The notes under the pieces are model-generated. The model was not told the DNA's origin and made no database searches. It saw only the letters and a program-made list of their open reading frames with translations. From Diplonema papillatum (lineage: Eukaryota > Euglenozoa > Diplonemea > Diplonemida > Diplonemidae): DNA of 64,000 nt. Shown here in pieces: positions 1,931-46,610 of the stretch. The stretch covers positions 1-64,000 of the forward strand of contig JAPJBO010000099.1 of assembly GCA_030068145.1 (NCBI GenBank), in the 5' to 3' direction. The position numbers and the translations under genes are program-made. Each line of letters begins with the position of its first letter. Position 1 is the first letter of the stretch.

Positions 1931-2028
1931 TCTCGATCACACTCTACAACGCTCTACTACACTCTACTACACTCTATTACGCTCGATTACGCTCGATTAC
2001 ACTCGATTACGCTCGATTACGCTAGATA
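1931..2028 (+). repeat. decamer tandem repeat
   Basis: About ten imperfect units of a 10-bp word (GCTCGATTAC / ACTCTACTAC). The same words resume at 3131-3157, immediately beyond the truncated LINE copy. The LINE fragment therefore lies inside an array of this decamer. Confidence 0.75.
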
Positions 2029-3130
2029 GGGTCGTTGAGAACGGTGGGAGCCCCGCCGTGCCTCACGGGGTACGAGATGAGGCCAATCTTCCGTGGTGGT
2101 ACGGAGACGATGGAAGTTCTCGAGACGCAGCTGACGACGGCTCGGCACGAGTTCAACGGCGAGGCGTGGGGGATGGACCTTTTCCCGACGTACGGAGGTG
2201 GAAGGGCGGAGCGCGCGGCGAGATGGGCGGTGTTCAACGACGCTACGGAGAAGAAGAAAGGAAAGAAGACGGCAGTCGTCGGAGGGGATCCGTGGTACGT
2301 GCCGGAAGGGGTTCCCCGACACGAAAAGTGGGGTGAGCGGGTGTGCCACGAGCACCAGAAGGTGAAATGCGACGGGTGCAAGCGCCAGGGCAAGTCGGTG
2401 GCGTGGTGCTGTAAGGCCCACCACAAGGAAGACGACGGCCTTGCGGTGAAGTTCTGCGCGCAACACCGCCTGACGCAATGCGCGACGTGCAAGACGATCG
2501 CGGAGTGCTGCCGCAACGGACACCACCGGTGCCTTGATCATGGCATGCCGACGTGTGCGCACTGCAGCCGGCTCGCGGACTTGCGGAGTCGAAGGCCGAA
2601 ACTGTGCTGTCGGAAGGGTCACCACCTGGCGGCCGTGGCGAGGAGTTATGAGGAGAAGAGAGGAGAAGAAGCAGCATCGAAGAAGAGGAAGGCGGAGCTG
2701 GAGGGCCCCGCGCCGGCGCCGAGACAGGCGAAGCGTGAGAACGTAGTGTTCATTCTGCGGGAAGCAGCGGAAGGCGAGCGAGAGCCCGCAACATCAACGC
2801 CGACATCAGCAACGAAGGTCGGGAAGACGGCATCAACGCCAGCGAAGAAGCGGCAATCGGACTCCGCGGCGGAGCCGGTACCGAAAAGACGCAAAGGACG
2901 CGTCGATGCGCCACGACCATCGCCCAGGCGCCGAGAAAAAGCAGAAATCGACGCGCAACCGATGAACCTCGACGAGCAATCGAAGAAGAAGCGAAGCACC
3001 AAACGCGCGCCTGAGCGCGACGATCAAGACGAGCTAAAGAGGCGAAAGCATGACACTTCACGTGCGAAGAGATAACCGCGCCGTCGGCGATGCAGATTAT
3101 CGCCACAGATTCTTTGCATTCTAACCCAAA
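2029..3130 (+). mobile_element. 5'-truncated LINE copy (3' end only)
   Basis: This is the 3' end of a non-LTR retrotransposon related to the intact element at 36099-44306. It keeps only the frame for the C-terminal Cys/His-rich domain and a short 3' tail ending CATTCTAACCCAAA. The tail recurs as a separate 62-bp insertion at 7062-7123, which defines the true 3' terminus of this subfamily. Decamer repeats flank both sides. Truncation at the 5' end is the usual outcome of incomplete target-primed reverse transcription. It cannot move by itself. Confidence 0.8.
2035..3075 (+). pseudogene. C-terminal fragment of LINE ORF2 (Cys/His-rich domain)
   Basis: The open frame has no proper AUG at its 5' end, as expected for a truncation. 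Residues ~100-200 carry an array of Cys and His pairs (CHEH...CDGC, CCKAHH, CAQH...CATC, CCRNGHH, CLDHG...CAHC, CCRKGHH), followed by a Lys/Arg/Pro-rich tail. The same order of motifs occurs at the end of the intact LINE ORF2 (43321-43620), including a shared RAARWA word just before it. The array probably binds zinc and nucleic acid; that role is inferred. The tail ends SRAKR and stops at 3075. The frame is uninterrupted, so the copy is not very old. Confidence 0.8.
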
Positions 3131-34200: not shown

Positions 34201-37200
34201 TAGACTCTAGTAGAGGTTATGTTAAATTTGAATTTTCTCAAGCTTCGCTCTAGCGAGCCACCCCGCTTTCTATGCTGGCCGGAGGTCACGAACGTGTCGA
34301 TTTCTTCGGTGCGCAGTGCGAAGCACAGAGCAAATGAGCGTGCCCGACGAGTACTCGGGTCAAAGTCCACGAAGCTTGTTTCGAGTAGCTAGCGCCTTCG
34401 GTGCCCGGGTCGTTACCGTCGCGGCGACACTCGTTGCTGGTGGGCTAGTAACGAATTCGTAGTCACGCTCACTTCCTCGTTTCCCGCTGAGAAGCGGCTT
34501 ATCGCGTTTCTCGTTTGTCGCGACTGACGAGATGGATTGGCTTGTGCTCTCGTAGCGTGGTCCTGGCTGTCACGAGCTACGAACCGCCGTCAGGCAAACC
34601 AGATTTACACAGCTGTCCTGGCGGCAGTCACTCAAGCTCTGTGCTGATGGTGGTCCGCCATACGTGTCAGTGAAAGGGCTGAAACACGGTGCAGATAGGA
34701 CTGTTGCGCAACTATTCATCCGAGCACGTTCTTGCAGTTCCCCCGTTCCGTCTACACGGTCACATGGCTGTCACATCGACACGTGAAAAAACAAAGCATG
34801 CGATCGCACGTAGCTACAGTCAAAACACATGTGATCGCATGTTCTGTCCCGGTGGTATCACATGTTAACCGACATAACATGCGAAATACCTCATAAATTC
34901 CGGAACATATTCGTGTACACCCCGACGTCACACCCGCCAAACAGGTTCCCGAAAGCTCCATCTTGCGAAGCAGCAGCTTCTTCGCTGGAAGCGAGTGGCA
35001 CCTTTCGGTCGAGGCGCCGGATGCTTTCTACGCCGCCCGGACAACGCACGCGCCGGTGGCTTTCGCCGTGCTCTTTGCCGTCTTCGTGTCGGCGTCGTGC
35101 GTTCTGCTCGCGGCGGCCCACGCCGCGGGCCAGCGATCGAAGCGGAAGCTGCAGGCGACGATGGACGTCGCCGGGGCGGCGGCGGCCGCCATCGCGGACA
35201 TGGACCTCGAACAAGCCGCGTTTCTGAAGGAGCTCGGCGAGCGCGCCGACCCGATCCTCTTCTCCCTGCAGCAAATCGTCGAAATCGTCGTGGTGTACAA
35301 GCGCTTCCTCCCGGACATGGCGCTGCTCCGCGAGGAGCCGAGGCGGTCGGAGGCGCCGTCGGACCTTAACGGCGACAGCGAGGACAGCGGCAGCGAAACG
35401 TCGCGCAGGGGCCGGCTGGTCTCTCGGACCAGTTACAACAGCAGCCACAGCAGCGGCTTGCCGAGGGTCGAAGCCCACCTTTCGCTTGGGCTTTGGTCGA
35501 TGCGGGTGACGCTGCTGAACCTCGTCGTGCAGTGCGCGCTGCAAAGCAGCGTCATCAACGGCGTCGTCTGCGCGATAGCCGCGTGCTGCCGCCGGCACAA
35601 CTTTCGGATCGTGTGCTTCCAAGCCGCCGGCGCGTGGATCATGGCCACGGGCACGGCCTCCATCGAGGTCTGCAAGCTCTGGCGCGGCCTGACCGCTCAG
35701 ACACCCTCCGCGAGGCTGCACGGCGGGGCCACCTTCGGGAAGTCGATCACGGGCGTAGTCGGCGGTAAGCACCACAGGTGTGGACTTGCCGCAATTGTTC
35801 GTCAAACGAAGACACGAATTTCGCTAACAGTATCATGCAGAGTGGCATGCGGGGCTTCGAGGCAAAACCCCCGCTTTCACAGTTCTGCAAATACCTAGCC
35901 CAGTCCTATCTGGAGCGCTGGCCCGGCGAGCTACGAGGGCACAAACCTTTCCCCCCCCTTTTTTTCTTGCATTTCAGGCCTGCATGCCCCATCAAAAGCA
36001 ATCGAAAAGAAAATAAACGAGCGTTCTACCACCTCGCGCGGTGTCACGGGATGTTTGGCAGCCGCTGCTAAACAAACATAACGTGGGCGGCGCCGAAGAC
36101 CAACGATTTAAAAGCTACAGTTTCTGTACTTTATTGGCTGCTCACGCGGCCGGTAAAGTGCGCCCGGAATTCATCCAGGACAAACACCCTCCATAACACA
36201 ACAGCGGTACCCATCCGCGAAAAGAACGCGGGCTACCCGTACCTCCGTCAAAATGGACAGGATTAACGCCCTGATCCAGGAAGCGCGCGGGATGGCGGAA
36301 CGCGCCAACCGCGACCAGCTGGATGCCGTTTTCGGCATCCTCGACGTCGCCACGACGCTGCTCCGGCGTCAGATCGAGGCGAACAGCGGGGAGCCGGCGC
36401 AACAACGGCCGCCACTGCAGCAACAGCAGCAACCGAAGCAGCAGCAGCAGCAACCGAGGCAGCAGCGGCAGCAACCGAAGCAGCAGCAACCGCAGCAGCA
36501 ACCGCAACCGCAACAGCAGCAGCAACAGCAACGGCAAACGCAGCAGCGCCGCCCGCAGGGGCAGCAACAACCGCAACCGCAACAGCAACAGCAACAGCAA
36601 ACGCAGCAGCGCCGCCCGCAGGAGCAGCAACAACCGCAACCGCAACAGCAACAGCAACAGCAAACGCAGCAGCGCCGCCCGCAGGAGCAGCAACAACCAC
36701 AACAGCGGCCCCGGCAGGGGTACGCGCCCACCTGGGCAGAAGTGACCAGGCGGCCCCCGCCACCCGGTAAAATCGACGCCGCCGACTGGGACGCGCCGGT
36801 ACTCCCCTCCCCCGACTTCGAAGCTGTCGAAGCTGGCCTCTGGGTCGCCCCGAGCGCCGCCGCAGCCGAAGAAGCGAAGGGTCCCGCAGCAGATGCGGTG
36901 GACGTCGCAGAGCGCGACGGGAAGCGGGTGCGCCTCGGCGTGCTGTGCCGGGAGGCCTTCGACGACGCACGCCGGGGCCCAGTGCTGCTGGAAGGCGGGC
37001 GGGTACAGGATATGTACCTGTGGGCGGGCGGCGGGCCGGTATGCCAGCGGGGCCAGGTGAAGGTCCAGAAGATGCCCGTCAGCGCGGTGAAGCCGAACGC
37101 CGCGACGACGGTACTGGCCTTCGTCGTGGCCAGGAAGCACGCCTCGCCGGAGACCTGGGAGTGCGTCGAGAGGGACCCGCGCACGGCCCTGACTCGCCTG

Positions 37201-40200
37201 TGCCGGAGGGCTGTCAAGACGGCCCTGAAGACGGAGGTCCGCGTCCCCGACGACGCCATGTGGGGCGTGTCGTCGCAGCAGGGGAGGCGCGAGCTGGTCG
37301 TGCGGGTGCCCCGCGCGCAGGCCGAAGCGATCCTGGCCAGCTCCGGCCGGGACGGCGGATTCTGGCGGTCGACGGAGAAGGCCTGCCGGGACGCCATGCC
37401 GGTGGTCGCCCTGCAAAAGGGGGTCACGAGGGCGGTCGCGCTGGCGGTAGCTGAGCGGGCAGGCGCGGCGGCAGCCGGTCTCGTGCTCACGGGCAGCCGC
37501 CTCCTCGTGCGCGCACGCAGCGGCGCTGTGCTGGAGGAGGTGCGTGCGGCGGCCGCCGAACACGCTGCTGCCCCCCTCGAGTCGAAGCCGCGCTTCCTCG
37601 TGGTGGGTGCGACGCCGCGGGAGCACGAGGCGGACGTCGAGTACGTCCTGCGGGAGGCCGGCTGGCAGGTCGACGTCGCCACGTCGTTCCTGCGAAGTGG
37701 GGCCCGGGTTTGCGTGGTGACGTCGGCGGCCGACCCTCCCTTCAGGGTGCTGCAGCGGGAGGGGGCACCCGACCTCCGGGTAAACCCGTACGACGGAGGT
37801 GAGCTGCCGAGGGAGCGGCGCAGGCGGCTCGCTGCCGCCCCCAGCGGGAAGCGGCGGATGCGGCTGCCGGCGGCGGAGGTGGACGAGCTACCGCAGCCGG
37901 CGGCCCCGCCAGCGGACGCGGCCGGACAGAAGAAGAGGAAGACGCCGGAGCCGGCAGCGGACGGGCCGGAACCCGCTGGGGACGATGTCCCAATGGACGG
38001 TGCAGAGGCGGGCGGGCACGTCCACGCCTTCGGGAGCCCGGCGAAGGCCACCGCCGGTTTCTCCTGCGCCCTATGCGGGAAGAAGAAGGCGAAGGGCCAG
38101 ATCCGCACGACATGCGAGGGCTGCAACGTCGGCGCGTGCAAGGCGTGTGCGGGTTGACTGCCACCGCGACCCGTCCCCGGCGCCAGTTGTGGCCCCGCCA
38201 GGCCGGTGCAGGCCGCCCAGCGCGTGAGTCCCAGCACGCAGTTCGACGATGGAGCAGGCGAAGGTGGTGGCGATCCCTCTTCTTCTTCTTCTTCTTTTTG
38301 CCCCCCTCTCTCCCACAATGCGCCAGGCCTCATTAGCCCGGGAAATTTACCCGCAGCGCACAAACAATCCCCCCACAAAGGCCAGCGTGCCTGCGGGGGG
38401 GGCCCTGTCAGGGTGGAGGGAGCAATCCCCGGACTAAGCTTCCAGACGATCCCTCGGGATCTTCTGGACAGACTGAGCCGAGTACCCGAGCTTGGGCCGA
38501 AAGCCACTTGGAGGAGGCTGGGGGGAGAACAAAGCAGAGAGACCCAGCAGTGGGGACACGCCTACCGACAGGGCGGACCCCCGGTCAGACTGGAACGGGG
38601 TATCCCCGAGGGGCCCCTGAAAGAAGCGGCGGATCTCATACGTGACCGTCTCGGGTGGGAACCGGACCAGTTGCTGGCCAACTGGTACCGGAGGGGAGTG
38701 GGGATCAACCCCCACAAAGACCAGAGAGAACTGGGTCCGAGGGTAGCGACCGTATCGCTCTTGAGCGACACGGTCATGGAGTGGGAGAGGGGGAGCCGGA
38801 GAGTGAGAACCCCCCTGCCGGTCGGCACACTGTGCCACATGGAAGGCGAGGCCAGGAGCCTGTGGACACACGGGATTCGTCCCGATGATGTCGCACGCGA
38901 CCGGGTCTCGCTCACCTACAGGGCCGTGCGCGAGGCCGCCTCCCAACGTTTGCAAGGCCGGGACACCCCGCAAGAAACTCCCCCCATGCCCCCCCCGCCC
39001 CGCCCTCAGGCGTCCTCCCCACCCCCCCAGCAACAGTTCAGCCCCGCGCCACGTACTGACTTGTGTAATCGCCAAAGAACTCTTATATCTATTAAGGAAA
39101 CTACTAGACAGCAGCTGTTAAGCGCTGGAGACATCGAACAGAACCCGGGCCCCGGCCGCACGGAGATGAAGTTCGCGACGTTGAACGTAACTAGCTTACT
39201 TCAATATCTCCCAGCGGCCGACGCGGTGGAAGCGGATCTTCTCTGCTGCCAGGAGGTGACACTCCTTCCGTGCAAACGGGCGCAGGCGGAGGAATACCTG
39301 CGGAAATGGTGCTGCCACTGGGGCCTGCCGCCTCCCGGAAGACTCTGTAGAAACTCCGGTAGTCGCTCGACGGTGAACGCCGCGAACGGGGGGCTCTCCA
39401 CTCTAGTACTGAGACCGATACCTGCGTACGATACGATGACGGCGCTCTCGCACGCAGCAATACGGTCCCCGGACCGAGTGAGCCATACGGTAGTAGCAAC
39501 AGGGGCCGGCAACACGTTCGTGCACGTGTTCAATGTCTACTGCCCTTCCGGAAACGGGAGGGCGGAGAGCGAGGAGCGTGAGGACATGCTGGAGAAGATC
39601 CTCTTCGCAGCGGCAGATAGCCTCGGTGACGTCCCCATAATGGTGATGGGTGACCTGAACACGGAAGAAGACCGGTCCCCTGTGCTGCGGAAGGCACTAA
39701 GGAACGGATGGTCCGACGCAGCGGAACTGCACCATGCGCGTACCGGTGACACACCGCCACCACCGACCTTTACCAGCGCCCGGACGACAGGCACGAGGAT
39801 CGACCGCATACTCCTCAACCGAATAACGACGGGAGCTTTCCGTCAATGCGTCACCACCGCGGTGAACGTACCGGGACACCGGCTCGTGACAATGACCCTG
39901 GACATTGCGGCGCTGCGCCAAATCGTGTGGCGATTTAAAGTACCGCGGGAAATCCCTACCGAGGGGGGACCCAAGTGGGGCCTCTCGGACACAGAAGCTA
40001 ACAGGGAAGCCGTACAGAGACTGACCAACTCCGATTTCGCAGAACGGCTGGCAGCACAGCGAGTGGAAGAGGCCTGGCTCGAGTGGTCACGAGTCAGTGA
40101 GCAGTACTTGCAGGATGCCTTCGGAATCCCTGCGGAAGAAAGGGGAAGGAGTACCGGCCGGGGGATAAAGACGTCGCCTAAGAGAGTCTGTATCACGGCA

Positions 40201-43200
40201 AGCACTGCGAGCGACGGGTCGGGGGCGGCGAACAGCAGACAGCTACGGCTCCGGAAGGCCATCCACAGGATGGAACGCATCTGCAGCTACCTTGCGCAGC
40301 GACGCGGGCCGGAGGCAGTTCCGCATGAAGTATCCCGTTGCTGGCAGAACAGCAGACGGCTGGCACAGGCGTGCATGAAAGGTGGCCAAGGGACAGAAGG
40401 ATTCCCGGATCATGAGGAGGCGAAGCAGCTTCTCACGGCATTGCGGGAAGAGACGAGTAGGCTCGGAAGGGAAGGATCGGCGGCCAGGTTTACGAAGTAC
40501 CGAGACAAGCTGAACGAGAGGGCCGATGCGAGCAGACGATGTCTGACAACCATCTGCGCCGGACGCGCTGAGCCGTCGGGGGTGTTGCGAACGGGGGCGG
40601 GAGTGACTGCAAATGTTGACGAGATGGACGAGGCGCTGAACACTGCGTGGGACCCTATCCTGCGTAAGTACAAGGACGGGCCAGAGCCGGAGTACGAGCC
40701 GTTTCGGGATCGGTTCCAGGATCACATCGGCCCACACTTGATGGAAGCCGGAACAATCACGGGGGAGGAGCTGCGAATTCTGCTGAGGAAGAAGCCGAAG
40801 AAAAGCGCGTCAGGGGTGGATGGCTGGCGCATGGCTGAACTGCGGGAGTTGCCGCTCCCCCTGCTGAATGCACTTGCAGACGTCATGAACCTGGTCGAAG
40901 CGACTGGGGACTGGCCGGCAAGCATGACAACTGCGCTGGTGTCGATGGTGCCGAAAGATGAGAGCCAAGACCCGCTGCACACGAGGCCGATAACCGTCAC
41001 ATCCGCCGTGTACCGCTTGTGGGCCTGCCGCAGGCTTGCGGACATTGTCCTGTGGCAGGAGGGGTGGATCGAAGAAGGACAGAAAGGCTTTCGGCCGGGC
41101 CACCGGATCGAGGACGTCTTGATGGAGATAGGGCTCGAGGTGGAGGACGCCTTGCTGGACGGAGAGCCGCTCTACGGAGTGGCGCTGGACTTCCGGAAGT
41201 GTTTCGACATGGTCCCGCGAGAGGTAGTGCTACGCCTGGCTGAGGACTTAGGACTGCACGGTCGGGTTCTCAAGCCGCTGAGGGCGATTTACAGTCTGCT
41301 CGCAAGACGCTTCAAGTTGCCGCTAGGGGTGGGCAGGGAGTTTAGTGTGACCAACGGTATCCTTCAAGGGTGCCCTGTGTCCGTCATACTCATCAATGCC
41401 CTGCTGTCGGTAGTGATGAAAGCGGTCAAAAAAGAAGCTGAGGGTGTGAGTCCTAAGTCGTACGCGGATGATGCCACACTACTGTCCAGGCTGTCGGAGG
41501 CCGCACTGCAAAAGGGAGTCGACATTGTTGACGAGTTCTGCACACTCACCGGAATGCAGCTAAACCTCGAGAAGACCATCGCATTCTCGACGAGGCAGAG
41601 GCACCAGTCGACGCTCAGACTCCGAAGCGGAAATGCGCTGCTGCGATTTAGCAAGTCCGTCACGTGTCTGGGGGCCCTAGTCTCAACGGCGAAGAACAGA
41701 AAGGAGAGGTCCGACTCTAAGAGGGTAGAGAGGGCGGCGGCCCTAGCGGAGGGCCTCCGCCACGCGCCATTCCGGTACGAAAAGCGGGTCCGTATTGTGC
41801 AGTCGAATGTGTTGCCGGCAGCGCTATCGGGCTGCTCCTTCGCGCCGGTGTCAAAGGTGGCGATGAAGCGGTTGACGACGTCGGTGATGGGTCTGATCTG
41901 GGGTGGAGCAAACCCGAAGCGCGCGAGAGAAATGGTCCTGAACTTCCAGGAGAAGGGCCACCTGACGGACCCCGGTACGTGTTTAGCGTACCGGGTGACG
42001 ACGGCGTTCTACGCGGCGTGCGAGAGGCTGCCGCGACTGCTACCTCTGATGGAGAGTATCCGGGGGCGGTACGCCGAGGGGGACCAACCCCTCGGCCCAG
42101 TCGGGCTGGCGATGAGGAGCATGGAGGAGTGTGGACACATATGGGAGCCTGGGCCCCTATCTCGCACGCTACGACGGAATGGTGCAGTGTTCGACCCGCT
42201 GGCCTCGTCGCCCTCGAAGAGGGGGCACGAAGTGAGGGCGGACCTGAGAACGAGGACGTGGGCCCGACTGATGGCGAGAAGGCCAGGATATCAGGGGCTG
42301 GAAAGAGCCGACTTGGAGCGCACGAATGCGTTCTGGAAGACGAGGGAATGTTCCGCGCACACGGCGAAGCTAATTCGAGTTGCGATTGCGGGGGGTGTGA
42401 ACACGGCGGAGTTCACGTCGCGGATGAGGCAGGCTGGAGCTGAGCCGCAGGCGCCCAGCTGCAAGCACTGTGGGAGCGGCGTGATGGAGAACGAACAGCA
42501 TATCTACTGGGACTGCGACGCATACTCACACATTCGCCGGCGGGAAGCACACGCCGGGCTGATGGCGGCCAACCGAACCGAGTGGCCCCGATGCACGCTG
42601 GAACATGGTGTGGTTGTACCGGGGAACGCCCACTTATCGAGGCGGCTCCAGGAGATGATGGCTGAAATCCTTACGGAACGTGCAGGGCTCGAAGCACGTG
42701 GCTGGGTAGCCAGGAACCCCACGACCCCCTGGTCGAGAGCGGATGCGATGCCTGCCGAGAAATTTGACCACCCCTTTGCGCGGATTGCCCCGGCATGGAC
42801 GTGGGAGCGAAACAAGACCTGGGGACTACCGACGTTTTATGCGTTGGTAGCGTGGCTGTCTGACATGCAGTGGACCGAGAGCGGGCAGGCGTCAATGCTA
42901 GAGCTTGCGATCGACTTTGAACTCTTCTCGGGCCTCAGCATGCCGCTGCACGGGAATGCGCCGAAGGGGGTGAGAGAACGGGGAAACGTCCTGCGCTGCA
43001 TGATGAGCGCGTTGGACAAGCTGGCGGCACAGCAAGGGCTGGGAAGCTGCATGAGAGGGGAGAGGGTGTGCCCGACGACGTCGCTGTCGTTCATGGGCAT
43101 CTCGGGGATATCGGGTGTACGGCCCAGGCCACGCTTTCGCGAGGCACACACGGGGACGATACTTGAGGAACAAGTGAAAGGAAGCGATGTAGGGACGCAG

Positions 43201-45813
43201 TGCCCGGCGTACCCTGACTGGACGATCGGGAGAGCGGCGAGGTGGGCCCTGCCTGCCCCACCACAACTGCACCCAGACCCCGTGCATATGCCGGGTGTCG
43301 ATATAGAGAAGGCACTCGTCACGTGCGCGACCCATCACAAAGGGAAGTGTGAGGCGTGCAGAGCACTCGTCCGAAGGGACGTGCCCACGGTAGAGATGTG
43401 CTGCCGGCACCATCACCACGCGAACGATGGGCAGCCGATCGCGGTGTGCGCAGAGCACAGCACGACGAAGTGCGGCGAGTGCAAGACGGCGGCGGCGTGT
43501 TGCCGCAGCGGGCATCATGCCTGCCGCACGCATGGCAGAGGAACCTGCCAAGAGTGCAAGAGGCTCCCTACGCTGACGCAGAGGCGACCGGCGGCATGTT
43601 GCCGCCGCGGCCACCACCAGTCCAACGAACCGAACGTCCCGTCAACCCCCGGACGCAACAAGAAGAAGAGGCCCTCCTCACCCACCCAGGTGGGCGTACA
43701 ACGGGGAACGCCAGTTGGAAAGCGAGCGGCGCAAGCGCCGCCCGCGGCAACGAAAAAGGAGACGGCGACGACCGGACGGGCGACCAAAAGGCCGCCACCA
43801 ACGCCAGGAACCAGCGAACGACCAGCGCTGAAGAAAAGGGTGCTAGGCACCCCGAAGGAAGGCCCGATCGCCGGCCGCAAGCGGAAGAAGACGAAGGCGA
43901 CCACCCCCGACTCAGGGGTGCATCGAAGGAAGAAGAAGGTACCGAGGGCAGGCAGCTCTCAGAAACGACCGGGGACCACGGGCACACCAACGCCCTCGAA
44001 AGTGAAAAACGGACACACGTGCCCGCCCTCGTACTCGCCGACTCAGTCTCTGGAATCGCAAGAAAGCCAAACCCCGCTAGCTCCACAAATGCTCGACCTT
44101 GACGACGCAATGGCAGGTGACGACGTCATCCGATAACCTGACTTTCAAGGCAGTGCATGTTAATCCACGTGGTTCATGTACTTAAAAGAACTCAATGCTA
44201 AACAAACATAACCGCTTTGAGATCGTCCTCGGACGATGAATTCAAATAACCCTAGCCTATGACAAATGCAAGCTTACCCCTGTGGTACCTGCATTTCAAG
44301 TTCACACTGCTAAACAAACATAACGTGGGCGGCGCCGAAGCTTTACCAGCTTCGGCTGACACCATTTGCGCACTTAACCATGGTTAAGAAGACAACTGAA
44401 AGCATAGACACAAAGATAGCCCAAGCATCTGCAGAATAACACGAAAAGCCTCTAGGCAAAAACCCGTTTTCACAGTTCTTCCTTTCGTTTTATTGATCGC
44501 CCCCTCCCTGCTGTCTGGCGGATAGTCGCGCCTCCCCCCCACTAGGAAGTGCTCCACACCCAGTCTCGTATCTACAAAAAGTCAACGGTGCACAACCACG
44601 CGTCACACAGGCACCACATGGTTACAGGCGACATAGTTGGCAAGGTCGAGTTCCTCTCAAGCCTATCGCAGCAACTTGACCTTACACTTCTCGTCCACGA
44701 ATGCGTGAAGCAGAGCACGATGGGTGTTGAAGGCTTCTCGTTTGTCGACTTTGCGCAACCGAATGACAAGTGCTACGAGCTCAACCCACAGAGCGAAGTG
44801 GGAAACGACACAGAGGCGGAGTGGATGTACCAAATTGGAGGTATGCTTTCTCTCTCCCCAAAGAAGGGGATTAACGACGGGTGTACCAAGCCATTGCTCT
44901 GTCGGTAAGCCACACCAACGAGATACCTCAGAAAACACAATTACCAGCTGCCGAGAACGTGTTGAGTCCACGAAGCCTCAACACAAGGTGATGCGCGGTT
45001 TCGAGACGCAAACCTTCAGTCGACCTGCGTACAAAGGTGAAGCACGCACAGCGCACTGGGCAATTTATTGAACGTCCCCCGGAGACGGAATACATTCAGA
45101 GTTCCTGGCCAGCATTATCTCTCAAAAAACGTACAGATGGCCCAGCGCCCGATCCGGTCGAAGCTGCCTGCACCTTGATGCTGCGCAAGCAGTGGGACCT
45201 TGCCCGGGAGGCGTTCGAAAAGCTGCCGGACGACAGGAAGCGGTCGGAGCTCGTCGCGTACCAACTGAGAAAGCTCGCCCACAAGCCGGCGCGGTACGAG
45301 CACGTGGCCATCGAGATCCGCGGGCTGGCCGCTGCGATCCCGACCCCGCAGCAGCTGCACCCTCTGGGCCTCGAGTCTTGGGCGCTCCTTCGGTGCCTCA
45401 CACTTCGCGGCTCCGACGGGAAACCGCGGTCGCTGTACCCATCCAAGCCCCTCTCGTCCCGAGTGCAGGTCGTGAGCAACCCCTCGCTTCCGCCCGACAT
45501 CGACGGCGCCGGCCCGGCAGCAGGAGGTGGCAGCATCTTGCCGCCTCTGCCCCCACCCTTGCCCCACCCGCAGCCCCAGTTGGTGCAGGGCCAGGTTGCC
45601 GATGCGCTTCCGCCCGTGCCGAAAAGCGCGGGCGGGGGAGGTGGCGAGGCGTCGGGCGGCGTGGCGCTCGCCGGAGGGGGCCCGCTTGCCTCCAGCAACT
45701 ACGCCGTGTCGCGGGCGCCGACCAGCGACGCGGCGTGCCAGACGTTCCTCACCAGCGGCCTCGCGCACCAGTCGTCGCTGCAGGTGCCGTTCCGGTCGAC
45801 GGGGTTCACGTGA
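30780..45813 (+). CDS. CHASE-domain membrane sensor with degenerate cyclase-like domain (six exons)
   Basis: Model: exons 30780-31242, 32546-32737, 33957-34153, 34945-35764, 44628-44840 and 45137-45813. All introns are GT-AG, phases fit at every junction, total 2562 nt, 853 residues. Residues ~25-50 form a membrane helix. Residues ~80-310 look like a CHASE extracellular sensor (LRAWLPRVPRGGRPVFEAR, VYYPLFFVTTETGQNE, then APIVAPGTEAVSGFAVKMYR). A second helix spans ~320-344. A linker containing VVVYKRFLPDMALL precedes a class III cyclase-like fold (~463-620). The first metal-binding Asp position is Asn476 and the second region reads FQAAGAW (509-515) instead of GD, so catalysis is unlikely. 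CHASE domains sense small ligands outside the cell. The C-terminus is Pro/Gly-rich. Intron 4 contains a whole LINE. Experimental splice evidence is lacking. Confidence 0.75.
31243..32545. other. CHASE gene intron 1 contents
   Basis: 1303 bp. It contains a T-run at its start, a short LINE-tail-like stretch near 32040-32095 (GAAGCATGACACGACGCGTG compared with 3043-3070) and a repeat B-like word (GAGTTTGCCAGTTGCGGAAT) near 32190. The rest is unassigned. Confidence 0.45.
32546..32737 (+). CDS. CHASE sensor exon 2
   Basis: Acceptor CGCTTACAG, donor CAG|GTATGG, phase 1 at both ends. Encodes the central CHASE strand and the characteristic YYP...N...LGFDL pattern, then PAALQLSFGLGS. It joins exon 1 through a split Gly codon. 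Confidence 0.72.
32985..33290 (+). repeat. dispersed repeat C in CHASE intron 2
   Basis: Runs from CATAAGCGCCAGCTTGAAAG through CACGTGTTGAACGGACGTGA to CATTCGGAGTCGAAGCAGCT. It lacks the 80-bp triplication of the copy at 27117-27600. Confidence 0.7.
33655..33694 (-). pseudogene. 18S rRNA 5'-end fragment
   Basis: The minus strand reads ACCTGGTTGATCCTGCCAGT and, after a 3-nt loss, ATATGCTTGTTTC. This is the conserved first ~35 nt of eukaryotic small-subunit rRNA. Similarity ends there, so it is a fragment, not a gene. It lies in intron 2 of the CHASE gene in opposite sense. How it arrived is unknown (retroposition or rDNA breakage). Confidence 0.8.
33957..34153 (+). CDS. CHASE sensor exon 3
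   Basis: Acceptor GCAAAACAG, donor AAG|GTGTGC. Encodes the final CHASE part (LVLSAAPIVAPGTEAVSG, then VVERGLLLYSSDPRVDEASK). Ends in phase 0. Confidence 0.7.
34603..34745 (+). repeat. dispersed repeat D in CHASE intron 3
   Basis: A diverged copy with GGCAAACCAGATTTACACAG, GATGGTGGTCCGCCATACGT and GAAACACGGTGCAGATAGGA. Confidence 0.65.
34945..35764 (+). CDS. sensor exon 4: second membrane helix and cyclase-like fold
   Basis: Acceptor CGCCAAACAG in phase 0, donor GGCG|GTAAGC in phase 1. Encodes WHLSVEAPDAFY, the helix VAFAVLFAVFVSASCVLL, an acidic Ser-rich linker, and LGLWSMRVTLLNLVVQ to ATFGKSITGVVG. The Asn in place of the catalytic Asp is here. Confidence 0.75.
36065..36098 (+). repeat. 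LINE target-site duplication, left copy
   Basis: 34 bp (CTGCTAAACAAACATAACGT ... GGCGGCGCCGAAG), identical to 44307-44340. The direct repeat on either side of the LINE fixes its borders at 36099 and 44306. Confidence 0.9.
36253..38157 (+). CDS. LINE ORF1 protein, Gln-rich with C-terminal zinc-binding motif
   Basis: 634 residues from a clear ATG. Residues ~50-155 are dominated by Gln with Pro and Arg, including near-identical repeats around RPQEQQQPQPQQQQQQQTQQ. A folded middle part (from ~230) contains RRELVVRVPRAQAEAILASS and later RFLVVGATPREHEADVEYVL; the latter could be an RRM-like fold, but the signature residues are not clear. The extreme C-terminus has six Cys as CX2CX12CX2CX4CX2C (CALCGKKKAKG...CEGCNVGACKACAG), a likely zinc-binding module. 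ORF1 proteins of LINEs coat the RNA and aid reverse transcription; that role is assumed. It ends in TGA with ORF2 following in the same phase. Confidence 0.85.
   Translation: MDRINALIQEARGMAERANRDQLDAVFGILDVATTLLRRQIEANSGEPAQQRPPLQQQQQPKQQQQQPRQQRQQPKQQQPQQQPQPQQQQQQQRQTQQRRPQGQQQPQPQQQQQQQTQQRRPQEQQQPQPQQQQQQQTQQRRPQEQQQPQQRPRQGYAPTWAEVTRRPPPPGKIDAADWDAPVLPSPDFEAVEAGLWVAPSAAAAEEAKGPAADAVDVAERDGKRVRLGVLCREAFDDARRGPVLLEGGRVQDMYLWAGGGPVCQRGQVKVQKMPVSAVKPNAATTVLAFVVARKHASPETWECVERDPRTALTRLCRRAVKTALKTEVRVPDDAMWGVSSQQGRRELVVRVPRAQAEAILASSGRDGGFWRSTEKACRDAMPVVALQKGVTRAVALAVAERAGAAAAGLVLTGSRLLVRARSGAVLEEVRAAAAEHAAAPLESKPRFLVVGATPREHEADVEYVLREAGWQVDVATSFLRSGARVCVVTSAADPPFRVLQREGAPDLRVNPYDGGELPRERRRRLAAAPSGKRRMRLPAAEVDELPQPAAPPADAAGQKKRKTPEPAADGPEPAGDDVPMDGAEAGGHVHAFGSPAKATAGFSCALCGKKKAKGQIRTTCEGCNVGACKACAG
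38158..44136 (+). CDS. LINE ORF2: AlkB-like domain, 2A, endonuclease, reverse transcriptase, Cys/His domain
   Basis: Open in the ORF1 phase from directly after its TGA. There is no in-frame AUG before 38776, inside the AlkB domain. Numbering from 38206 as residue 1, an AlkB-like 2-oxoglutarate/Fe(II) dioxygenase spans ~76-245 (H170-x-D172, H222 in LWTHGI, R233...R239 in RVSLTYR). The 2A motif GDIEQNPGP ends at residue 316. The APE-type endonuclease (~317-565) shows Q349-E350, GDLN 482-485 and H558. The reverse transcriptase (~845-1130) shows D995 in ALDFRKCFDM, LQGCPVS and YADD 1086-1089. A CCHC finger is C1419/C1422/H1432/C1437. A Cys/His-rich domain (~1706-1800) precedes a basic Pro-rich tail. 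The protein nicks DNA and copies the LINE RNA. How the N-terminal part is translated is unclear. Confidence 0.9.
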   Translation: MPPRPVPGASCGPARPVQAAQRVSPSTQFDDGAGEGGGDPSSSSSSFCPPLSHNAPGLISPGNLPAAHKQSPHKGQRACGGGPVRVEGAIPGLSFQTIPRDLLDRLSRVPELGPKATWRRLGGEQSRETQQWGHAYRQGGPPVRLERGIPEGPLKEAADLIRDRLGWEPDQLLANWYRRGVGINPHKDQRELGPRVATVSLLSDTVMEWERGSRRVRTPLPVGTLCHMEGEARSLWTHGIRPDDVARDRVSLTYRAVREAASQRLQGRDTPQETPPMPPPPRPQASSPPPQQQFSPAPRTDLCNRQRTLISIKETTRQQLLSAGDIEQNPGPGRTEMKFATLNVTSLLQYLPAADAVEADLLCCQEVTLLPCKRAQAEEYLRKWCCHWGLPPPGRLCRNSGSRSTVNAANGGLSTLVLRPIPAYDTMTALSHAAIRSPDRVSHTVVATGAGNTFVHVFNVYCPSGNGRAESEEREDMLEKILFAAADSLGDVPIMVMGDLNTEEDRSPVLRKALRNGWSDAAELHHARTGDTPPPPTFTSARTTGTRIDRILLNRITTGAFRQCVTTAVNVPGHRLVTMTLDIAALRQIVWRFKVPREIPTEGGPKWGLSDTEANREAVQRLTNSDFAERLAAQRVEEAWLEWSRVSEQYLQDAFGIPAEERGRSTGRGIKTSPKRVCITASTASDGSGAANSRQLRLRKAIHRMERICSYLAQRRGPEAVPHEVSRCWQNSRRLAQACMKGGQGTEGFPDHEEAKQLLTALREETSRLGREGSAARFTKYRDKLNERADASRRCLTTICAGRAEPSGVLRTGAGVTANVDEMDEALNTAWDPILRKYKDGPEPEYEPFRDRFQDHIGPHLMEAGTITGEELRILLRKKPKKSASGVDGWRMAELRELPLPLLNALADVMNLVEATGDWPASMTTALVSMVPKDESQDPLHTRPITVTSAVYRLWACRRLADIVLWQEGWIEEGQKGFRPGHRIEDVLMEIGLEVEDALLDGEPLYGVALDFRKCFDMVPREVVLRLAEDLGLHGRVLKPLRAIYSLLARRFKLPLGVGREFSVTNGILQGCPVSVILINALLSVVMKAVKKEAEGVSPKSYADDATLLSRLSEAALQKGVDIVDEFCTLTGMQLNLEKTIAFSTRQRHQSTLRLRSGNALLRFSKSVTCLGALVSTAKNRKERSDSKRVERAAALAEGLRHAPFRYEKRVRIVQSNVLPAALSGCSFAPVSKVAMKRLTTSVMGLIWGGANPKRAREMVLNFQEKGHLTDPGTCLAYRVTTAFYAACERLPRLLPLMESIRGRYAEGDQPLGPVGLAMRSMEECGHIWEPGPLSRTLRRNGAVFDPLASSPSKRGHEVRADLRTRTWARLMARRPGYQGLERADLERTNAFWKTRECSAHTAKLIRVAIAGGVNTAEFTSRMRQAGAEPQAPSCKHCGSGVMENEQHIYWDCDAYSHIRRREAHAGLMAANRTEWPRCTLEHGVVVPGNAHLSRRLQEMMAEILTERAGLEARGWVARNPTTPWSRADAMPAEKFDHPFARIAPAWTWERNKTWGLPTFYALVAWLSDMQWTESGQASMLELAIDFELFSGLSMPLHGNAPKGVRERGNVLRCMMSALDKLAAQQGLGSCMRGERVCPTTSLSFMGISGISGVRPRPRFREAHTGTILEEQVKGSDVGTQCPAYPDWTIGRAARWALPAPPQLHPDPVHMPGVDIEKALVTCATHHKGKCEACRALVRRDVPTVEMCCRHHHHANDGQPIAVCAEHSTTKCGECKTAAACCRSGHHACRTHGRGTCQECKRLPTLTQRRPAACCRRGHHQSNEPNVPSTPGRNKKKRPSSPTQVGVQRGTPVGKRAAQAPPAATKKETATTGRATKRPPPTPGTSERPALKKRVLGTPKEGPIAGRKRKKTKATTPDSGVHRRKKKVPRAGSSQKRPGTTGTPTPSKVKNGHTCPPSYSPTQSLESQESQTPLAPQMLDLDDAMAGDDVIR
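39127..39153 (+). other. 2A ribosome-skipping peptide
   Basis: Encodes GDIEQNPGP, matching the D-x-E-x-N-P-G-P consensus at which ribosomes skip the Gly-Pro bond. It lies after a Pro-rich linker and 12 nt before the Met that opens the endonuclease domain. It should release the AlkB part from the endonuclease-reverse transcriptase. 2A peptides are known in some LINEs of trypanosomes and animals. Confidence 0.9.
44307..44340 (+). repeat. LINE target-site duplication, right copy
   Basis: Identical to 36065-36098. The host intron continues after it. Confidence 0.9.
44628..44840 (+). CDS. sensor exon 5: end of cyclase-like fold
   Basis: Acceptor GGTTACAG, donor GGAG|GTATGC, phase 1 on both sides. 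Reads DIVGKVEFLSSLSQQLDLTL and ends EAEWMYQIG. The DIVGKVEFL...LLVHECV pattern matches the helix that follows the G-VG word in cyclase folds. It lies 8.9 kb beyond exon 4, across the inserted LINE. Confidence 0.7.
45137..45813 (+). CDS. sensor exon 6: C-terminal tail
   Basis: Acceptor ACGTACAG. Begins GPAPDPVEAACTLMLRKQWD, a helical region with W and L spacing like that following cyclase folds in related protist proteins, then a Pro/Gly/Ala-rich tail ending RSTGFT and TGA at 45811. Parts of this exon are duplicated at 46263-46610 and 46857-46930. Confidence 0.7.
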
Positions 45814-45867
45814 CGGCCGCACTCGCCGACGTGGTGGTGTCTCAGGCAGTCGACCCACTCGTTTACA

Positions 45868-46222
45868 GTGGTCAGACAGTGGTCAGACAGTGGTCAGACA
45901 GTGGTCAGACAGTGGTCAGACAGTGGTCAACAGTGGTCAGACAGTGGTCAGACAGTGGTCAGACAGTGGTCAGACAGTGGTCAGACAGTGGTCAGACAGT
46001 GGTCAGACAGTGGTCAGACAGTGGTCAGACAGTGGTCAGACAGTGGTCAGACAGTGGTCAGACAGTGGTCAGACAGTGGTCAGACAGTGGTCAGACAGTG
46101 GTCAGACAGTGGTCAGACAGTGGTCAGACAGTGGTCAGACAGTGGTCAGACAGTGGTCAGACAGTGGTCAGACAGTGGTCAGACAGTGGTCAGACAGTGG
46201 TCAGACAGTGGTCAGACAGTGG
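45868..46222 (+). repeat. 11-bp minisatellite
   Basis: About 32 units of CAGTGGTCAGA with one shortened unit near 45925. It starts 55 bp after the CHASE gene stop. Because 11 is not a multiple of 3, all three frames stay open and read SDSGQTVVRQW, which explains long spurious frames. It ends in GTGGTCGCCCATGGGCCAG, the word shared with 1839-1918. Confidence 0.95.
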
Positions 46223-46262
46223 TCGCCCATGGGCCAGGCAGGCCGTCGACCACTTGTGTGGA

Positions 46263-46610
46263 ACCACGTGTTTGTAGGGGCTGGCCGCGGCGATTCCGAC
46301 CCTGCAGCAGCTGCACCCTCTGGGCCTCGAGTCGCGGGCGCTCCTTCGGTGCCTCACGCTCCGCGGTCGCTGTACCCGTCTAAGCCCCTCTCGTCCCGAG
46401 TGCAGGTCGTGAGCAACCCCTCGCTTCCGCCCGACATCGACTGCGCCGGCCCCCTTGTCCCACCCGCAGCCCCAGTTGGTGCAGGCCCGCGCTTTTCGGC
46501 ACGGGCGGAAGCGCATCCGCGGGGGAGGTGGCGAGGCGCCGGGCGGCGTGGCGCTCGCCGGAGCCCGCTCACCTCCAGCAACTACGCCGTGTCGCGCGTT
46601 CTGCGTGTGG
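46263..46610 (+). pseudogene. decayed duplicate of CHASE gene exon 6
   Basis: Matches 45320-45710 with deletions (TGCAGCAGCTGCACCCTCTG, CGAGTGCAGGTCGTGAGCAA, CCTCCAGCAACTACGCCGTG). A shorter third copy is at 46857-46930 (CCACAGCAGCTGCACCCTCT). Each copy follows the CCCATGGGCCAG word. The frame is disrupted, so it encodes nothing. Confidence 0.75.

Follow-up and report, generated by a model that had tools for sequence, protein, structure and literature searches.

The window, the whole 64,000-nucleotide stretch of Diplonema papillatum DNA analysed here, contains on its forward strand a LINE bounded by an exact target-site duplication, in which what is almost certainly an AlkB-family dioxygenase domain lies between ORF1 and a predicted 2A-like peptide that is followed by an endonuclease and a reverse transcriptase.

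36065..36098, no strand: left target-site duplication, 34 bp, an exact repeat of 44307-44340
36099..36136, + strand: 38 of the 39 nt of a euglenozoan spliced leader, the 5' end of the LINE, matching a leader in an excerpt of PMC3795323
36253..38157, + strand: ORF1 from its first ATG (stop-to-stop 36157-38157), Gln-rich, with a weakly RRM-like part and a C-terminal Cys cluster
38155..38157, + strand: in-frame UGA stop that separates ORF1 from ORF2, with CUG next, a proposed readthrough site
38158..38424, + strand: open linker without an in-frame ATG, dN/dS 0.47-0.91
38275..38314, + strand: polypyrimidine tract within the linker, possibly a relic or a live trans-splice signal
38425..38922, + strand: AlkB-family 2OG/Fe(II) dioxygenase domain, assigned from profile, PDB sequence matches, fold, selection and residue conservation
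38713..38721, + strand: predicted iron ligands H186-x-D188 (stop-to-stop numbering), from conservation
38869..38871, + strand: predicted third iron ligand H238, from conservation
38902..38922, + strand: R249-x5-R255, predicted 2-oxoglutarate and active-site arginines, from conservation
39106..39153, + strand: predicted 2A-like ribosome-skipping peptide, ...SAGDIEQNPG/P, from its motif
39181..39822, + strand: APE-type endonuclease, Pfam Exo_endo_phos, 35.2 bits
40975..41589, + strand: reverse transcriptase, Pfam RVT_1, 68.1 bits, with YADD at 41458-41484
42460..42516, + strand: CCHC-type Cys/His cluster, read by eye
43318..43626, + strand: C-terminal Cys/His-rich region, from sequence reading
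44307..44340, no strand: right target-site duplication, an exact repeat of 36065-36098

The ORF2 stop-to-stop frame, 38158-44136, is 1992 aa long and contains the AlkB, endonuclease (EN) and reverse transcriptase (RT) domains, the latter two scored against curated Pfam cut-offs of 24.5 bits (Exo_endo_phos) and 29.6 bits (RVT_1); no RNase H was detected in ORF2 by Pfam. The nearest PDB relative of the RT is human L1 ORF2p, with an E value of 5.4e-20 compared with 4.2e-14 for R2. On the basis of the APE endonuclease, the L1-nearest non-LTR RT and the 34-bp duplication, the element is classed as an APE-type LINE. ORF1 yields no Pfam match over the cut-off and only a fair structural model (pLDDT 66), for which no Foldseek match was observed at E <= 0.001; the weak fold matches are tandem RRM chains (raver1, IMP3) and also EF-G and aspartate kinase.

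Insertions occur at or near TGCT(A/T)AAC (36066, 44196 and 44308 in the window, and the flanks of copies L050-L069) and often immediately past the 3' terminus of a further LINE copy, so that head-to-tail chains arise. A frame at 2026-3075 shares 37% identity with the LINE's Cys/His-rich C-terminus across 192 aa and appears to be a piece of another family, and a tandem repeat at about 45500-46280 reads SGQTVVRQWSD in one frame. The C-terminal region of copy L028 is 98% like that of the window and its RT 94%, suggestive of exchange between subfamilies. TAAAAGAAC is located upstream in three 5'-truncated copies with differing break points (L023, L031 and L046).

The AlkB domain and its occurrence in unlike transposons

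The sequence-only reading had proposed an AlkB-like domain from an H-x-D, a second His and a closing R-x5-R lying in one frame ahead of an endonuclease and reverse transcriptase, and had called for a profile search and a structure prediction. The motifs are present in one frame as claimed, with identical spacing, the earlier residue numbers being 16 lower than those given here. Pfam profile PF13532 (2OG-FeII_Oxy_2) matches the whole ORF2 frame at 46.5 bits and its first 337 aa at 49.5 bits, the curated cut-off being 31.2 bits; the bacterial AlkB equivalog TIGR00568 is matched at 14.5 bits, below its threshold of 231. In phmmer searches of PDB chains with the LINE AlkB, human ALKBH8 (E 3.8e-7, with a likeness spanning 77 residues) and ALKBH6 (E 1.2e-5) are detected, E. 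coli AlkB and ABH2 being found at E 0.45-1 only. The AlphaFold model, for which eight related sequences served as input, is confident (pLDDT 91, pTM 0.88), and AlkB proteins lead its Foldseek matches in the PDB, ALKBH6 (7vjs; E 1.4e-12, TM 0.78) ranking first and being followed by ABH2, ABH8, NMAD-1, ALKBH3 and ALKBH5. A fold search of a viral library places Pithovirus LCPAC103 first (E 1.3e-14, TM 0.84), followed by several RNA-virus polyproteins. The PF13532 score, the H-x-D...H and R-x5-R motifs and the jelly-roll fold are those of the AlkB family, and we consider it almost certain that the window LINE encodes a genuine AlkB dioxygenase domain.

AlkB domains are also found in transposons of other classes in this genome. 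AlkB and Helitron_like_N share one frame at L010 and L016, and at L018 AlkB (54.0 bits), Helitron_like_N (131.3 bits) and PIF1 (144.5 bits) are encoded in one 2310-aa frame; L018 thus combines a Rep domain with a PIF1-type helicase in one protein, as expected of a Helitron. AlkB-Helitron combinations occur at seven places (L010, L011 and L015-L019), the AlkB being 44% identical to that of the window, and at L013/L014 AlkB is accompanied by Helitron-like pieces nearby. Another element was assembled from L030 and L049, which lie on one contig and were joined at their overlap: a single frame of 2322 aa encodes AlkB, behind an ATG, followed by OTU and RT; the genome search also gives this frame length for the OTU-RT element, with no stops. 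R2 is the nearest match to its RT (E 2.2e-7, compared with 0.004 for L1), its OTU match of 21.0 bits is below the cut-off of 23.3, and no endonuclease profile match was found. The OTU-RT AlkB is 79% identical to the window AlkB over 172 residues, and by eye the stretches upstream of its ATG resemble the LINE linker.

Judged from these sequences, the AlkB module seems to have been passed between unlike elements. In a tree of 13 rows the transposon AlkBs group together with 57/72 support; in a tree of 15 rows they are not one clade and the very long host branch L002 lies among them. Recent capture from a host AlkB was rejected, the nearest host AlkB examined, L020, being 29% identical. L020, with a retroelement frame downstream, and L012 were considered as further AlkB transposons and are read as host genes. 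Pattern-based scans with alignment A1, which may miss distant relatives, revealed no viral or prokaryotic donor.

Seven AlkB residues, N95, Y97, H106, D108, H158, R169 and R175 in domain numbering, are invariant in 8/8 sequences of alignment A1, which comprises four LINE copies, one OTU-RT element, two Helitrons and one element of unsettled class. The same seven are kept in 39/39 aligned loci, a count that represents 38 distinct places (L008 and L010 being the same place), includes the host-like L020 and is biased to intact domains by selection of the loci on AlkB score. Over 166 codons of the domain, dN/dS between the window and LINE copies L024, L036 and L032 is 0.14, 0.23 and 0.28, respectively, and over a longer stretch of 182 residues it is 0.20-0.34 in unsaturated pairs; the EN-RT-C-terminus has a value of 0.12 between the window and L024. 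By these measures, the dN/dS values being taken between LINE subfamilies, the domain is intact and under purifying selection, with a constraint about as strong as that on EN-RT. A less biased sample than the AlkB-picked loci is provided by frame length: 31 of the best 94 of 3773 candidate RT matches in the genome search fall in frames 1971-2046 aa long, the size of a frame with AlkB, whose presence there is taken from length. Stops inside the match occur in 2 of 150 scored PF13532 places genome-wide, a set that includes host genes.

The 495-bp AlkB DNA gave 267 candidate matches, the best 40 of which were scored; all 40, on different contigs, are 97-100% identical, 12 at the top score, and the window LINE is therefore considered young. 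Profile, fold, residue conservation and selection thus agree on an AlkB domain upstream of EN and RT in a LINE, and a chance motif as the source of the AlkB signature is ruled out by the same four lines of evidence. The sequence-only reading had named absence of a profile match, absence of the fold and loss of the metal residues in most other copies as outcomes that would speak against it; the match and the fold are present and the metal residues are kept.

The ORF1-ORF2 junction and the spliced leader

Twenty-six LINE copies were compared (the window, L021, L023-L028 and L031-L048), the ORF1-ORF2 junction being visible in 18 and the remainder (L021, L023, L031, L039, L044, L045, L046 and L047) being truncated, rearranged or cut off. 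At all 18 junctions, which represent related copies and not independent events, TGA is followed by CT (CTG, CTA or CTC) and the ORF1 frame continues into ORF2. This junction is uniform despite strong divergence of the ORF1s, which are 27% identical between types. An in-frame ATG ahead of AlkB is absent from 16/18 copies, L038 and L048 having one, and in the window the first in-frame ATG of ORF2 is located at 38776, past the H-x-D. The 117 AlkB codons ahead of the first in-frame ATG have a dN/dS of 0.12-0.25 and are therefore expected to be translated. The linker ratio of 0.47-0.91 is not clearly below 1, and shuffled linkers of the same composition stay open in 4-15% of trials. In fungi, UGA followed by CU is described as a readthrough element and as sufficient for efficient readthrough in Ustilago, according to the excerpted text of PMC4207609; UGA-CU with an in-frame extension is observed at 18/18 junctions. 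Between AlkB and EN, NPGP stands behind (V/I)EQ in 26/26 LINE copies, all 26 fitting the 2A motif D(V/I)ExNPGP given in an excerpt of PMC4981915.

These patterns suggest that the element is probably expressed by readthrough combined with 2A. Most ribosomes would stop at the UGA and produce ORF1p, whereas a few would read through to give ORF1p-linker-AlkB ending in 2A; at the 2A these ribosomes would release ORF1p-linker-AlkB and continue to make EN-RT. AlkB is accordingly expected on ORF1p, as 2A separates it from EN and its frame runs from ORF1 through the UGA-CU. The earlier view of an AlkB built into the LINE polyprotein is thus correct in that AlkB shares the EN-RT frame, but is probably wrong as to the product, given 2A in 26/26 copies and a frame that arrives from ORF1 via UGA-CU. 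Alternatively, ORF2 could be translated from its own mRNA, produced by trans-splicing at the 38275-38314 tract and using a non-AUG start, with no readthrough. The polypyrimidine tract is present in 4/4 LINE subfamilies compared and a similar tract lies ahead of the AlkB-frame ATG in the OTU-RT element; however, in the window copy no in-frame ATG occurs from the tract to the catalytic H-x-D, and a separate mRNA leaves the TGACT and the common ORF1 frame at 18/18 junctions unexplained, making this route unlikely.

A spliced leader of 39 nt, AACCAACGATTTAAAAGCTACAGTTTCTGTACTTTATTG, which we take to be that of Diplonema, is associated with the 5' end of many LINE copies. AACCAACGATTTAAAAGCTACAGTTTCTGTACTTTATTG is included in a table of 54 euglenozoan leaders, in a passage of PMC3795323 that carries no species name. 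The last 32 nt of the leader have 571 exact matches in the genome, compared with 0 for the reversed control, and at least 21 of the first 100 matches have a LINE AlkB 2.2-3.0 kb downstream in the same orientation, a lower bound as they were judged against hand-picked AlkB places. Most of these first 100 are situated away from the listed LINE AlkBs, some recurring at about 5.96 kb (C192). In 23 leader-bearing LINE copies (the window at 36099-36136, L024, L027 and L050-L069), the leader length is 39 nt in 8, 38 nt in 9, 37 nt in 1, 36 nt in 2, 35 nt in 2 and 33 nt in 1. The leader part ends mostly at leader nucleotide 1 or 2 (17/23); cap modification may account for the accumulation at nucleotide 2, a reading confounded by target-site overlap. 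Where enough upstream DNA was available (the window and L024-L028), 3/6 copies have the leader.

In two of the 23 copies, L052 and L056, the leader is joined just past the position at which other copies have AG (CCAG/GACAAACACC and TTAG/GAAACAAACGG), which is what trans-splicing would do. Two observations count against trans-splicing: CCG, not AG, stands ahead of the counterpart of SL/TGGTCGCC, and no copy with an unspliced acceptor was found among the copies compared for SL/GCTGCTCACG, the commonest junction. As many LINE copies begin with the leader, a trans-spliced mRNA is indicated as the template, and on this evidence the copies are made from spliced-leader mRNA.

Possible substrates of the AlkB and comparison with known elements

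In other LINEs, ORF1p is the RNA-binding partner. Our leading reading, held tentatively, is that a young LINE of a spliced-leader host captured a predicted AlkB-type demethylase which, carried on ORF1p, removes N-methyl marks from the element RNA. ORF1p would hold AlkB on this RNA, and AlkB would remove N-methyl marks that limit RNA stability, translation or reverse transcription. Action on the element's own RNA is plausible from the gene arrangement, at a level of confidence that stops short of even. Against it, the nearest solved AlkBs, ALKBH8 and ALKBH6, are not m6A erasers, and mammalian L1 is promoted by METTL3 and suppressed by ALKBH5, as stated in an excerpt of PMC7873242, effects opposite to a gain from erasing m6A.

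Helitrons transpose without an RNA intermediate. As they also carry AlkB, including a single ORF of AlkB, Helitron_like_N and PIF1, the target may be DNA, which is for this reason the main rival: AlkB would erase a host DNA methyl mark (e.g. N6-methyladenine) or repair alkylated single-stranded transposition DNA. The DNA-acting ABH2 and NMAD-1 are among the fold matches; conversely, the LINE AlkB is joined to the ORF1 side and not to EN-RT and the top PDB sequence matches are ALKBH8 and ALKBH6, and we regard a DNA target as somewhat unlikely. Modification of host tRNA in the manner of the ALKBH8 AlkB domain, favouring element translation or UGA readthrough, is suggested by human ALKBH8 being the best PDB sequence match, but is improbable, as the similarity is limited to 77 residues and no ALKBH8-type RRM or methyltransferase domain adjoins the AlkB by Pfam. 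That the predicted dioxygenase is a functionless passenger or an assembly artefact is hardly credible, given a constraint about equal to that on EN-RT, near-identical scored copies on different contigs and the 34-bp target-site duplication.

We also offer a more speculative proposal, to which we give less credence than to the leading reading: that the AlkB eraser is a counter-defence cassette shared by at least three unlike transposon classes (L1-like LINE, R2-like OTU-RT element and Helitrons), transferred among them as a response to host methylation of transposon nucleic acid, a mark that every class would need to remove. The LINE would deliver its eraser on ORF1p at low dose via UGA readthrough and 2A.

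Among APE-type LINEs that carry a 2A peptide, L1Tc of Trypanosoma cruzi and its counterparts (excerpt of PMC4981915, which lists Heras 2006 and Odon 2013 as references) share with the Diplonema element the APE-type non-LTR organization, the 2A and probably the host phylum, but L1Tc has its own Pr77 promoter and transcripts without a spliced leader (excerpt of PMC4748587), and AlkB goes unmentioned in the excerpts of both sources. Candida Tca2 similarly has two ORFs separated by a UGA stop that has to be bypassed, but is an LTR element with gag and pol, the excerpt of PMC2194720 mentioning no AlkB or 2A. Plant RNA virus replicase polyproteins and giant viruses share an AlkB fold in parasites of genetic machinery; unlike the LINE they are not retroelements, and identity is 16-28% among the matches listed.

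A retrotransposon with a captured AlkB domain is described in orchids: Ty3/Gypsy elements of Phalaenopsis carry an AlkB (2-ODD) ORF, and m6A RNA was demethylated in vitro (excerpt of PMC9289625). These differ in being LTR elements with a separate extra ORF that is ALKBH5-like, whereas the Diplonema AlkB lies between ORF1 and 2A-EN-RT and has ALKBH8 and ALKBH6 as its nearest solved relatives. LINE, SLACS and Helitron genes are mentioned in the D. papillatum genome paper, which refers to AlkB a single time (excerpt of PMC10161547). A search of titles and abstract openings in the open-licence literature found no AlkB in a LINE or Helitron among the matches listed. Within that scope the earlier statement that no LINE with AlkB has been described stands, but the orchid elements represent another retrotransposon class in which AlkB has been published with activity, again from the excerpt of PMC9289625.

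If these readings are correct, they would point to methylation-based transposon control in a protist group that is abundant but has received little study, and to an eraser common to unlike transposons. RNA or DNA methylation as a barrier to transposition becomes testable here, the elements carrying the proposed antidote, and the layout, with readthrough and 2A together, would set both the dose and the partner of the enzyme. In its copies, this LINE also preserves a record of trans-splicing.
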